Assembly (NCBI RefSeq): GCF_000010325.1
Contig: NC_009662.1
Span: 1,074,501 to 1,138,500 of the forward strand
Direction: 5' to 3'
DNA: 64,000 nt
Origin: Nitratiruptor sp. SB155-2
GTDB taxonomy: Bacteria; Campylobacterota; Campylobacteria; Campylobacterales; Nitratiruptoraceae
Shown here: positions 8,461-23,878 of the stretch, piece after piece
How positions within the stretch are numbered: position 1 is the stretch's first letter
Layout: each line of letters opens with the position of its first letter
Notes under the pieces: generated by a model
Database searches by the model: none
What the model saw: only the letters and a program-made list of their open reading frames with translations
Told to the model about the DNA's origin: nothing
Translations under genes and position numbers: made by a program

Positions 8461-8466
8461 TATAAT
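8461..8466 (+). promoter_or_regulatory. -10 box of the Clp-FtsH chimera gene
   Basis: TATAAT lies 26 nt upstream of the preferred ATG at 8493. Transcription would start near 8473, exactly where a three-codon ATG-AAA-GAA-TGA reading frame begins (8473-8484), followed by GAGG and the real start. Confidence 0.5.
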
Positions 8467-8492
8467 TATCGCATGAAAGAATGAGGAATACC

Positions 8493-10853
8493 ATGAAACA
8501 TAAAGATTTGTTACAAAGATATGAAGAACTTAAAAAAAGACTCAAAAGTAAAATTTTTGGACAAGATGATGCGATTGAGGAGCTTATAAATGCTCTTTTT
8601 CATATACACCACTCTCCAATAAACCAACCATTCAAAGGCCTCTTCACCTTCTTTGGACCACACAATAGCGGAAAAGTATATTTAGCTACTCTTTTGGAGC
8701 AAGAAAGTGAAGAGTTTCAAGGGATAAAAGTGGTCAACATGGCCGAATTCACCGATCCCGCTGATCAAAAAAAGCTTATAGGTTCCAGTGGTGCACTGCC
8801 TACTTTCATAAAAGCCCATCCTCAATCGATTGTCGTTTTTAAGGATATTGAAAAGTGTGACAACGTCATCCAACTGGCACTCATGAACTATATTTTTGCT
8901 TCCAAAGAGGAAAGTGGAGTCGATTGTTCGAATGTCTTGTTCATTTTCACCTCAACCCTTGGAAGTTCTTTGATCAAAAAAGAGGATTTTCAGCGTTTTT
9001 ACAAAAAAGATCCGCTCAAAGCCCAGGCAAAGTTTATCGAATTTATCGCAAAAGAAAAAAAGATCATCTACGATATCGTTGAAAGCGCTATCGTTCCCGA
9101 ACTTCTTTCTGTGATGGTACAAAACTATATCATCCTCTTTAAACCGCTGGAATTTGATTCGATCGTCAAAATCGCCAAGGCAAGTTTCAAAGAGACGATA
9201 CAAAAGAGCAACATAGAAGGCGTCGACAAAATTTCGCTTCCCAAAAATGATTTCATCGAACTGCTTGTACTCTCATTTTCACCCTATATCAATGCCAGAA
9301 GAGTGCATAAGAAACTTCCTGATCTCATTATAGATCTCATATATCAAGCAGTCATAAAAGCGAAGCTACCCATCAAAAAAATCGTTTTTGAAGTATCGGA
9401 TGAAGCAAAAGATTTTTTCAAAAAGGTTGATAAGAAATTTTTGGAAAACCTCATCAAACAAAACAGATCTGTCCATCTTTCCTGGTCCATTACAACTCTA
9501 AAAAACATCGTTACAATAAACATACAAAAAGCAACCCTTTTCAAGCTGCCACTTTATATCGAACCGACTCAAAAACCGTATGTGAACTATTCAACGATCT
9601 CTTTCAACGACATTGCCGGGCAAAAGCATGTGAAATCACATCTTAAAGAGATCGTGCGCATACTCAAACAACCTTCCATTGTGGAAAGGTTTCATATCCC
9701 CATGCCAAAGGGCATGTTGCTTCATGGGCCAAAAGGTGTGGGGAAAACCCTTTTGGCATACGCCTTTATCAAAGAGACAGAGTTTGCTTATGTGATGCTC
9801 ACCGGATCAGATCTTTTAGACACCAACCTCATTCACGCTGCATATCAAAAAGCAAAAGAGATTGCACCGGCTATTGTTTTTTTAGATGAACTGGATGGGA
9901 AAGATGGGATGATCATACCATACGATGCCATTAGCGAAGAGATCGATGCTATCAGCGATGAAGAGTATGTCTTTACCGTCGCTACGGCACTCAATATCGA
10001 TGCAATCGACAAAAATCTTCTGGCAAGCGAACGGTTTGACTTTTTGATAGAGGTGCCAGATCTCGATATGGAAGCGAGGAAGTTTTTTATCAAAAAGATT
10101 TTACAAAAACCGAACGACGGCAAGATCGATGTCGAGAAAGTGGCACGATACATGAGTGGACTCAGTGGATATGAAATGCAGCGCGTAGGCAAAGAAGCTG
10201 CACTTTATGTCATTCGCAAAAATCTCAAAGTTATCACTGAAGAGATTTTGATAGAGCAGATCAACAACATCAAATATGGACAGAAGATCGACAAGAAGCG
10301 CATCAGAAATCTTGAAAAAGATCTTCACAAAACAGCCTATCACGAAGCGGGCCATGCAGTTATCAGCTATCTTTTGCTCCCTGATATCAAAATAGAACAA
10401 GTTACCATTACACCTAGGGCAGAAGCACTTGGATTCGTCTCTTACACTGACGAGTTCATTACCAACATCTCCAAAGAGGAGTTGTACAACGACATCTGTG
10501 TCGCTTTGGCAGGTAGGCTCAGCAAACTCAAAAAATTCCCTCAAGAAGGCGAAGATACTGGAGCTGCGCAAGATTTGGAACAAGCGACTTGGGAAGCCTA
10601 CAATCTTGTAGCCACCTTTGGAATGGATGAATCACTCGGGTATGTCCACGTCGATACGCTCATGCAAAATGTCAGCAAAGAACTTTTCAATGACACGATA
10701 GAAGAGCGGGTGGCATACTGGATAGAAAAAGCCACCAACGATACGATTGAACTTATCGAAACCCATTGGGAAAAGATAGAAAAGGTCGCCGCTACTCTTA
10801 TCGAAAAAGAGATGATAGATGGAACGGAACTGAAAAATATTATGGAGTCCTAA
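8493..10853 (+). CDS. Chimeric protease: degenerate Clp-type AAA+ domain, FtsH-type AAA+ and M41 peptidase
   Basis: The 786-residue product (790 from an ATG at 8481) has three parts. The first 270 residues resemble the second AAA+ domain of ClpA/B/C: SKIFGQDDAIEELINALF, a Walker A-like GPHNSGKV lacking the usual Thr/Ser, SIVVFKDIEKC in place of a DE Walker B, and sensor-like NVLFIFTSTLGSS. Residues of about 370-590 form an FtsH-type AAA+ with good Walker A (HGPKGVGKTLLA) and Walker B (AIVFLDELDG), but only one Arg of the usual RPGRFDR (ASERFDF). The rest is an M41 peptidase with intact HEAGH (codons at 10341-10355) and the third zinc ligand in AAQDLEQAT (10572). There are no N-terminal membrane helices, so unlike FtsH it should be soluble. 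Start 8493 is preferred because GAGG lies 6 nt before it. The substrate is unknown. Confidence 0.85.
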   Translation: MKHKDLLQRYEELKKRLKSKIFGQDDAIEELINALFHIHHSPINQPFKGLFTFFGPHNSGKVYLATLLEQESEEFQGIKVVNMAEFTDPADQKKLIGSSGALPTFIKAHPQSIVVFKDIEKCDNVIQLALMNYIFASKEESGVDCSNVLFIFTSTLGSSLIKKEDFQRFYKKDPLKAQAKFIEFIAKEKKIIYDIVESAIVPELLSVMVQNYIILFKPLEFDSIVKIAKASFKETIQKSNIEGVDKISLPKNDFIELLVLSFSPYINARRVHKKLPDLIIDLIYQAVIKAKLPIKKIVFEVSDEAKDFFKKVDKKFLENLIKQNRSVHLSWSITTLKNIVTINIQKATLFKLPLYIEPTQKPYVNYSTISFNDIAGQKHVKSHLKEIVRILKQPSIVERFHIPMPKGMLLHGPKGVGKTLLAYAFIKETEFAYVMLTGSDLLDTNLIHAAYQKAKEIAPAIVFLDELDGKDGMIIPYDAISEEIDAISDEEYVFTVATALNIDAIDKNLLASERFDFLIEVPDLDMEARKFFIKKILQKPNDGKIDVEKVARYMSGLSGYEMQRVGKEAALYVIRKNLKVITEEILIEQINNIKYGQKIDKKRIRNLEKDLHKTAYHEAGHAVISYLLLPDIKIEQVTITPRAEALGFVSYTDEFITNISKEELYNDICVALAGRLSKLKKFPQEGEDTGAAQDLEQATWEAYNLVATFGMDESLGYVHVDTLMQNVSKELFNDTIEERVAYWIEKATNDTIELIETHWEKIEKVAATLIEKEMIDGTELKNIMES

Positions 10854-21686: not shown

Positions 21687-22209
21687 TACTCCCCCTTAAT
21701 AGATGTCCTACATCTTTAATGTAATATACTTGACCATATTGTTGGAAAAAGTGTTTACTTTTTTGTGGATTGACAATTTTATCCAAAGCACCGATAAAGA
21801 CTTCGATATGAACTCCACTTTGAACCAGGAACTCCAGTGCTTTGTCATCCCAGGTAAAAAAAAGAAGTGCTTTAAGATCTCCTAAAGATGGTTGCGTAAA
21901 AAATTTTGAATAATCTTTTTTGGATGGATAGGCAGCTTTTTTATAAAAAAAATGTAAATAGGCATCTTGGTTTTTCACAAAAGACAAAATCTGTTTATGC
22001 TTGAACTCTTTTGACTCTTCATCGAAATATGCAGGCGATATGAGTTGTAACGTATCGACTCTTTTGCCCTCTTGCACCTGTTTCACTGCTTCTTGAAACG
22101 CTTTTTGCGCTCCATAGCTGAAACCTGCTATCGTAAAATCACTTCGATTCAAAATATCGAGAAAAAGGATTTTTTCATTGTGAAAGCCAAAACCGCTAAA
22201 AAACTGCAT
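21679..22209 (-). CDS. bioV: Pimeloyl-ACP methyl ester esterase, BioV type
   Basis: A 176-residue alpha/beta hydrolase resembling BioV of Helicobacter, which releases pimeloyl-ACP from its methyl ester to feed biotin synthesis. It begins [13 protein letters not shown], has the nucleophile motif GFSYGAQKA, a late Asp in GALDKIVNP and the His in KDVGHLL, so the triad is complete. The ATG at 22209 is chosen because GAGGG lies 7 nt upstream; a longer frame to 22227 would overlap more of the preceding gene. No other biotin gene is in this window. The BioV assignment rests on overall resemblance and is moderately sure. Confidence 0.75.
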   Translation of the reverse strand: MQFFSGFGFHNEKILFLDILNRSDFTIAGFSYGAQKAFQEAVKQVQEGKRVDTLQLISPAYFDEESKEFKHKQILSFVKNQDAYLHFFYKKAAYPSKKDYSKFFTQPSLGDLKALLFFTWDDKALEFLVQSGVHIEVFIGALDKIVNPQKSKHFFQQYGQVYYIKDVGHLLRGSNG

Positions 22210-23878
22210 CCACGACCCTCTTGACATCCTCTTTCGTCACAGACTCATGCTCTTGAAGATAGGTTGCTATCTTTTCCACCAGTGCAAAATGGCTGCTCAG
22301 ATACTCTTTGAGTTCGACTTTCGCTTCCTCCACTATTTTTATTGCATCATTTACATCAGCAAAAAGCCTATCTCCCATACCGTATCGCATCACCATCTCT
22401 TCAGCAAGCACTTTTACCCGTTTCAAATCTTCTGCAGCATTGGAGAAGGTTTCATTGTATTTGAGTTGCAAAGCCACGTAACCGGCAAGAAGCGCTTTTA
22501 TTTTTGACATGAAATCCTGTTTGGAAACGATCTCTCTATCTATATCTTTGAGGTATCCGCCGACAAGTGTCAATTTGTCAAAATCGACGCCATACCAGTA
22601 AGCGCACAAAGCTTTTGCCGCTTGATAGACACTTTGGATCTCTTTCTCCTTTTCATCAAAAACAAGCAGTTTTTTCTTGCCATACAGTACTTTGTCCTTG
22701 ACAGCTTCAAAATCGCTCAACTCCACGATTTTTTTCCCCAATTTCAAAGCATGAAGTGCCGCTTCATTCACAAGACTGGCAAGAGCGGCACCGCTAAATC
22801 CGACGCTCATATCTGCAAGTCGTTCCAGATCTACGTTGTGTGGAATCTTTCGAAGATAGATTTTGAGTATCTTCATTCTATCCTCTTTATTTGGCAAAGC
22901 CACATAGATTCTTCGATCAAAACGACCAGGTCGAAGAAGCGCTTCATCCAAAACTTCGATCTTGTTCGTCGCCCCTATAACGATGACCCCACTGGAAGCT
23001 TCAAAACCATCCATCTCGGTAAGAAGCTGGTTGAGTGTCGCTTCGCGCTCGTCATTTCGCATGCCTCCTCTGGCTTTGCCAACTGCATCGATCTCGTCGA
23101 TAAAAACGATGCTTGGGGCCATCTCTTTTGCTTTTTTGAAAAGTTCGCGAACCCTTTTCGCTCCCATACCTACATAGATCTGCACGAACGCACTTCCACT
23201 TTGATAAAAAAACGGTACCCCGGCTTCACCCGCTACCGCTTTTGCGATCAATGTCTTTCCGACTCCTGGTGGGCCAACGAGCAGCACGCCTTTTGGCATG
23301 CGAACCCCAAAGCTTGTATATTTTTTCGGATCTTTCAAAAAGTCTATTATCTCTTCAAGCTCCTCTTTCACTTCATCGATGCCCGCCACATCATCAAAGG
23401 TATAAGCACTCACTTGCGGCTTGATATCCATCTTCATCTCAGGCGTTTCCGCCGGAGCTATCTGTATCTGATGCTTAATCGGTATAGGCTCTTTTCTTTG
23501 GCGCTTAAGATAGTACACAAGGTATCCTACAAAAAAAGCCAAAATCATGATTGCCAGAAAATCATAAAAGTTTTGATAATTTTCCTGCATCTTGACCGGT
23601 ACTTTTTTATACAGCTCTTTCGTATCGATAAACTCTTTTGGGATTTTGTACTCGATACCGCCACTCTTTATATAGACATATTCGTTTCCTATCTTCGCTG
23701 AATCGATCATGCCGTTTTCAAGAAGCGTCTGATAGGTAGAGTAGTCGATATCTCTTTGCGGAAAATATTTCATAAAAAAGAGTGTGCTCAACATAATGAG
23801 CACTAAAGATGATAACGCTATTACAATGATCTTTTTTGTTTTAGAATTTTGCAAAATTGGCCTCTTCTTGTATTTCAT
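22196..23878 (-). CDS. FtsH-family AAA+ membrane protein with inactivated protease domain
   Basis: A 560-residue FtsH homologue with two N-terminal membrane helices (about residues 15-37 and 105-128) flanking a periplasmic domain. The AAA+ part is fully intact: [25 protein letters not shown], and the arginine fingers in RPGRFDRR. In the C-terminal M41-like domain the zinc motif HExGH is replaced by QAAKA (residues 419-423, bases 22610-22624), removing both His and the catalytic Glu, though the downstream Asp in AAEDLKRV is kept. It should unfold or remodel membrane proteins without cutting them. The ATG at 23878 has no ribosome-binding site; a TTG at 23854 with AGAGG 6 nt upstream is an alternative start. 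Confidence 0.88.

Follow-up and report, generated by a model that had tools for sequence, protein, structure and literature searches.

M41 proteases are described as membrane hexamers in which the AAA ring feeds the peptidase. Among the closest described systems, the LonC protease of Meiothermus taiwanensis, MtaLonC, is a hexamer that binds nucleotide and has no ATPase activity, and it degrades unfolded substrates without ATP (PMC3391209). In the FtsH ternary conflict systems both domains are of the FtsH type and the partners are MoxR and vWA proteins (Kaur et al. 2020, PMC7159879). The open-licence papers searched included none on a Clp-FtsH fusion and none on an ATP-independent M41 protease.

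The window analyzed here, a 64,000-nucleotide stretch of DNA from the deep-sea bacterium Nitratiruptor sp. SB155-2, includes a gene that an earlier note, made from the sequence alone, had described as a Clp-FtsH chimera and a candidate new protease architecture. A named protease family with this organization was found neither in Pfam nor in NCBIfam or PADLOC; the PADLOC labels IetA, DolB, PDC-M37B and TRIP13 were rejected as generic AAA+ domain matches. The ORF spans nucleotides 8481-10853 (+) and encodes 790 amino acids from the start at 8481, from which residues are numbered throughout (4 must be subtracted for the start at 8493). The start at 8493, preferred in the earlier note, is the better of the two because GAGGA is found five bases before this ATG. 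A TATAAT sequence farther upstream is a weak candidate for a -10 element, since a consensus scan listed no promoter there. The features of the locus are the following:

8461-8466 (+), TATAAT, possible -10 element, 27 nt upstream of ATG 8493 (read directly)
8483-8487 (+), Shine-Dalgarno-like GAGGA, 5 nt before ATG 8493 (read directly)
8493-10853 (+), whole gene, 786 amino acids (full-length homologues without internal stops in relatives)
8517-9050 (+), Clp/Hsp100 D2-type AAA+ large domain, residues 13-190, ATPase-dead by motif (Pfam AAA_2, TIGR02639, ClpB NBD2 by PDB sequence and fold)
8655-8678 (+), degenerate Walker A GPHNSGKV, residues 59-66, GK kept and Ser/Thr lost
8832-8855 (+), degenerate Walker B VVFKDIEK, residues 118-125
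9051-9575 (+), Clp small domain and beta-rich linker, residues 191-365
9591-10100 (+), FtsH-type AAA+, residues 371-540 (Pfam AAA, FtsH matches)
9726-9749 (+), intact Walker A GPKGVGKT, residues 416-423
9807-9848 (+), site of the deleted FtsH pore loop 1 (MFVGVG), a segment of 18 amino acids instead of 24
9990-9992 (+), sensor-1 Asn changed to Leu, L504 (motif columns)
10032-10043 (+), Arg finger 1 retained (R518) and Arg finger 2 changed to Phe (F521) (motif columns)
10101-10310 (+), AAA lid with the family signature EEILIEQINNIKYG, residues 541-610
10311-10850 (+), M41 zinc metallopeptidase domain, residues 611-790 (Pfam M41, 4.1e-34)
10341-10355 (+), HEAGH, with zinc ligands H621 and H625 and catalytic E622
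10572-10574 (+), third zinc ligand D698 (101/101 members)

All motifs quoted in the earlier note were found in the translation. An assembly fusion of two genes was rejected, as the same single ORF is found with 34-95% identity in many genera of two phyla; a pseudogene was rejected on the basis of an overall dN/dS of about 0.04, zero stops and the retained zinc site. A phage or plasmid gene was likewise rejected, no plasmid or phage record covering 80% of the query, and the plasmid and phage matches listed cover the FtsH half only. The protein has no clear membrane helix, in agreement with the reported absence of the FtsH membrane helices: its best 19-residue Kyte-Doolittle mean is 1.64 (residues 195-213, in the Clp small-domain region) versus 2.72 for a membrane FtsH paralogue in the window used as control. 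By this measure the chimera is apparently soluble. The AlphaFold model of the full chain (pLDDT 86), a single-chain model that is silent on a hexamer, had FtsH as its best Foldseek matches.

The first half of the protein does resemble the second AAA+ domain of Clp/Hsp100 proteins. Pfam AAA_2 matched residues 55-186 (37.4 bits against a cut-off of 27), and the NCBIfam ClpA model TIGR02639 matched residues 11-292 (2.6e-14, far below the equivalog cut-off), so that HMM searches relate the first 270 residues to Clp AAA+ proteins. A phmmer search of the PDB with the N-terminal half identified ClpB NBD2 (1.7e-9), with ClpC and Hsp104 also matched, and the AlphaFold model of residues 1-356 (pLDDT 93, pTM 0.88) gave ClpB second-ring structures as the best Foldseek matches (E 1.2e-14; 1.8e-14 for the isolated ClpB NBD2). 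The Clp assignment is well above chance, and the profiles, the PDB searches and the fold exclude a chance motif match. The Clp-region motif GQDDAIEELINALF and FIFTSTLGSS, the latter from residue 154 on, are present as quoted, and the alignment with the ClpB1/Hsp104 small domain reaches about residue 302-307. The loss of the Walker A Ser/Thr and of the Walker B Asp-Glu pair held up on inspection, the window protein having GKV at the former and KD (D to K, E to D) at the latter, where the long-form relatives described below have VVFDEIEK. The GYVG pore loop of the Clp second ring is missing from the window protein, in which this segment is shortened; it has 17 amino acids in the Nitratiruptor clade versus 24-25 in the long forms. 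The ClpP-binding tripeptide xG[FL] was not found in residues 151-260 of the chimera; the same scan found it in the ClpA of the window genome.

The FtsH-type half was matched by Pfam AAA (residues 412-526), by the NCBIfam FtsH model TIGR01241 (residues 371-784, 236.6 bits against an equivalog cut-off of 600) and by FtsH in the PDB (1.8e-48). Aligned motif columns were compared in the 101 members included in the tree described below, with eight membrane FtsH proteins as controls. The stretch of pore loop 1 has 18 amino acids in 101/101 members and 24 in 8/8 controls, and Arg finger 2 is replaced in every member (101/101). The sensor-1 Asn is kept in 7/7 long forms and in only 5 of the 94 other members. 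The Walker A Lys is invariant across the family, and Arg finger 1 is retained in all forms carrying a Clp half. Walker B is intact in the window protein (D469-E470) and reads DE in the long forms, in six of the seven Nitratiruptor-clade members and in 4/39 Desulfobacterota members. The catalytic Glu has at least four different replacements across the family: Walker B reads DG in Desulfobacterota and, separately, in one Nitratiruptor relative, EG/ES and DN in the Hydrogenimonas group, and ED/EN in the Sulfurimonas/Sulfurovum group, and KD is also seen outside the DE-bearing groups. Within the Nitratiruptor clade the most conserved part is the AAA lid. Thus, the FtsH-type AAA+ that the earlier note had joined to a dead Clp ring is present, but as an unfoldase it is degenerate in its own right (pore loop 1, the sensor-1 Asn and Arg finger 2 are lost), and the picture of a dead Clp ring capping a working FtsH is for this reason an oversimplification.

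Because this ring of the window protein has an intact Walker A and an intact Walker B Asp-Glu, it might still hydrolyze some ATP and carry out limited remodelling. The enzyme might even still be ATP-dependent, with the FtsH-type ring hydrolyzing ATP and threading substrates by means of other loops, and the dead Clp ring acting as an entrance funnel or, as the earlier note had it, a lid. In favour of this explanation, the window protein and five of the six other members of its clade have preserved Walker A, the Walker B Asp-Glu pair and Arg finger 1. The three losses named above speak against it, as does the fact that most of the family has also lost the catalytic Glu while keeping M41, and we regard it as rather unlikely.

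The peptidase presents a different picture. Pfam Peptidase_M41 spans residues 613-787, and the intact HEAGH and third-ligand Asp were borne out (H621, E622, H625 and D698). Across the family H621 is kept in 100 of 101 members and E622, H625 and D698 in 101/101 each. On these residues the M41 domain looks active. In one long-form relative (L081:7587-10211) the zinc site reads YEAGH and the Clp Walker B is also changed; this protein is a possible pseudoprotease.

Full-length homologues showed 63-95% identity within the genus, 60-66% in other genera of the family and 34-44% elsewhere in the order. A scan of 84,980 genomes led to 141 confirmed loci, the best 80 of which belong to Campylobacterota and Desulfobacterota/Deltaproteobacteria, with a few titled only bacterium or Proteobacteria; the Campylobacterota titles among these 80 are Nitratiruptor, Hydrogenimonas, Sulfurovum, Sulfurospirillum, Sulfurimonadaceae and Arcobacteraceae. 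A member is carried by 39/397 genomes of the class of the window and by 8/291 in the class of a Desulfobacterales genome (G415). Mapping of the phylogenetic range, suggested in the earlier note, defines a conserved family of patchy distribution in Campylobacterota and Desulfobacterota. Two members, each in one genome, are split in two ORFs (L064:7880-10307 and L120:6355-8831), by a frameshift, a sequencing error or recent decay.

In a tree of 101 sequences and canonical FtsH the family is monophyletic (UFBoot 100); within it, the Nitratiruptor members are sister to those of Desulfobacterota (UFBoot 99). The decayed forms are a clade (UFBoot 92), in which the short forms (UFBoot 100) are nested within a group of support 90; the long-form clade is weakly supported (74). 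FastTree agrees with this tree. Most long forms have GKT, DE and the 24-25-amino acid pore-loop segment in the Clp half, and in the FtsH-type half they keep the sensor-1 Asn and Walker B DE, with pore loop 1 already missing. The Desulfobacterota members retain the length of the Clp loop, and GKT and DE are mostly missing. In the Nitratiruptor clade the Clp half has GKV or GKL, the shortened loop and KD (DD in one case), the Asp-Glu pair being gone in 7/7 members. A lineage of 21 sequences, mostly of about 448 amino acids and titled mostly Sulfurovum or Campylobacterales, lacks the Clp half and carries Lys or Thr in place of Arg finger 1. On the simplest reading, the family descends from a single ancestor that combined M41 with two AAA+ domains; several lineages would then have lost motor residues, and the Clp half would have been lost once. 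The chimera is part of a decay series that leads from two intact motors to the 448-amino acid form without the Clp half.

The dead Clp half is under strong purifying selection and is not drifting freely. The dN/dS values, obtained from one pair only (the window sequence and a 95%-identical sister species, dS about 0.6), were 0.057 for the Clp large domain, 0.050 for the Clp small domain and linker, 0.024 for the FtsH AAA and 0.028 for M41.

We give an even chance to the following explanation: the chimera would be an M41 zinc protease, soluble and probably hexameric, that has ceased to be a normal ATP-driven threading machine. As the M41 site was kept and the motors decayed several times, the enzyme probably cleaves protein that is already unfolded and does so in the absence of the usual motor; with no canonical pore loop on either ring in the window lineage, the usual ATP-driven threading is unlikely. 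An ancestral machine of the kind still represented by the long forms would have used an active Clp-type ring to grip and unfold the substrate; this would then have reached the M41 chamber by way of the FtsH-type ring, from which pore loop 1 was already missing. In the window lineage the Clp ring, having lost its ATPase site and pore loop, would have become a static collar; an adaptor or lid role, as proposed in the earlier note, may be envisaged for it. The FtsH ring would still bind ATP, using the Walker A Lys together with Arg finger 1; this binding would probably serve assembly or gating and not translocation. That the Walker A Lys is invariant and Arg finger 1 is retained suggests that nucleotide sits at the subunit interfaces, which would favour a ring. 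The M41 chamber would then digest peptides as well as cytosolic proteins that are already unfolded or are brought by an adaptor, much as LonC does. Against such a static chamber, substrate might be gripped by another loop.

In the Nitratiruptor clade the chimera gene sits between oppositely oriented genes, with an HlyD-like protein encoded upstream and a glycine-zipper lipoprotein and a phosphoribosyltransferase-like gene (the latter named by eye) downstream. In two related genomes without the chimera (G005 and G009) the outer markers are about 870 bases apart, approximately the space for the HlyD-like gene alone, and the chimera gene is thus simply missing from its conserved place. An operon partner was rejected, as no neighbour is conserved across the family.

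An FtsH2-like membrane paralogue of 560 amino acids is found in the window at 22196-23878 (-). It has intact AAA motifs and a pore loop, and its M41 site is dead, the HExxH motif reading YQAAK; the defect is kept in three genomes examined, including two related genomes. By its motifs this protein is a bacterial FtsHi-like pseudoprotease with a defect complementary to that of the chimera. It has to be considered, together with the canonical FtsH, ClpA and ClpP that the window genome also encodes, that the chimera could be a subunit of a mixed ring, the motor coming from a partner such as FtsH2, canonical FtsH or ClpA. The exactly complementary defect of FtsH2 and its conservation in the three genomes would fit. 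However, FtsH2-like genes are found across the order, including places where there is no chimera, no FtsH2-length gene was among the matches listed in eight Desulfobacterota genomes, and the chimera has no membrane anchor and is unlinked to any motor gene; a mixed ring is in our opinion very unlikely.

The following long-form clusters encode Clp-FtsH-M41 proteins with intact motors:

L065:6649-17735, with an N-terminal extension, adjoining DUF4062/STAND/TPR genes
L070:628-13999, with an N-terminal extension (as in L071), adjoining DUF4062/STAND/TPR genes, a TIR gene also nearby (L070/L071)
L080:7434-14589, the long form between a DUF4062 gene and a Zeta-toxin-like kinase gene

These clusters are candidate immune modules. 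DUF4062 (PF13271) was matched in 4/6 long-form genomes searched and was not found in the genomes of L066 and L081. A 2026 preprint, in which FtsH, Clp and M41 are not mentioned, reported that DUF4062 is a family of TIR-like NADases that take part in antiphage defence (PMC13174449). The N-terminal extension of the long forms (L065:7246-7600, L070:7470-7830) resembles, by eye, the Clp N-domain. A small conserved gene of about 180-210 amino acids is located directly upstream of two long forms (L066:6709-7341, L065:6649-7191); the L065 copy had no Pfam or PADLOC match.

The chimera might, on the other hand, be a regulatory processing protease that cleaves one partner site-specifically; it could have descended from the immune modules in which the long forms are linked to DUF4062. 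That most long forms adjoin DUF4062/STAND, TIR or Zeta-toxin-like genes, that DUF4062 proteins are reported as NADases, and that the window gene is patchy within its genus are all in line with this possibility. It is nevertheless quite unlikely: there are zero DUF4062 matches in the window genome, so that the DUF4062 setting belongs to the sister lineage only, no conserved partner gene was found, and PADLOC gave only generic AAA+ matches.

Returning to the decayed-motor protease, we tentatively propose, at somewhat short of even confidence, a new class of M41 proteases, soluble and working without ATP-driven unfolding. They would have arisen from a double-motor Clp-FtsH protease, one shared with DUF4062/STAND immune modules, as its two fused motors decayed repeatedly, one being kept under selection as a scaffold and in one lineage discarded. 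The family forms a natural series: some members have two intact motors, others two decayed motors, and others a single decayed AAA, and the zinc site stays essentially the same throughout. This allows one to ask directly what an AAA+ ring does in a compartmental protease once pulling stops. The small, apparently soluble M41 enzymes of about 448 amino acids could be expressed without membranes, and the series links the Clp-FtsH double machine to DUF4062 NADase-type immune genes.

The FtsH/m-AAA/i-AAA proteins (TIGR01241) have, like the chimera, an AAA+ followed by M41 with HExxH and a third Asp. The chimera differs from them in the Clp-D2 domain in front, the lack of a clear membrane helix and of pore loop 1, the single Arg finger, and the score of 237 bits against an equivalog cut-off of 600. 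It shares with the second ring (NBD2) of ClpA, ClpB and ClpC the fold, the order of the motifs and the large and small domains; unlike these it has a dead Walker B, no D1, no ClpP loop and a deleted pore loop, and it carries the protease in the same chain. The conflict-system FtsH proteins are also tandem AAA+ proteins with a dead first and an active FtsH-type second domain (Kaur et al. 2020, PMC7159879), whereas in the chimera the first domain is a Clp D2, M41 is present and no MoxR or vWA neighbour was noted. LonC would be a functional parallel in combining a non-functional AAA part with a live protease; its Lon-type protease domain is unrelated, the chimera being a zinc M41 enzyme with two AAA+ domains. 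The pattern of a live protease with a non-hydrolyzing AAA fits the motif losses in most of the family, and the window copy keeps Walker A and B. Chloroplast FtsHi and Ycf2 (PMC9020784) are, like the chimera family, FtsH relatives in which one activity has decayed. FtsHi lost the protease, with HExxH lost and the AAA intact, whereas the chimera family shows the opposite pattern and lost its motors. The chimera is neither a canonical FtsH nor a Clp ATPase and is the inverse of FtsHi.
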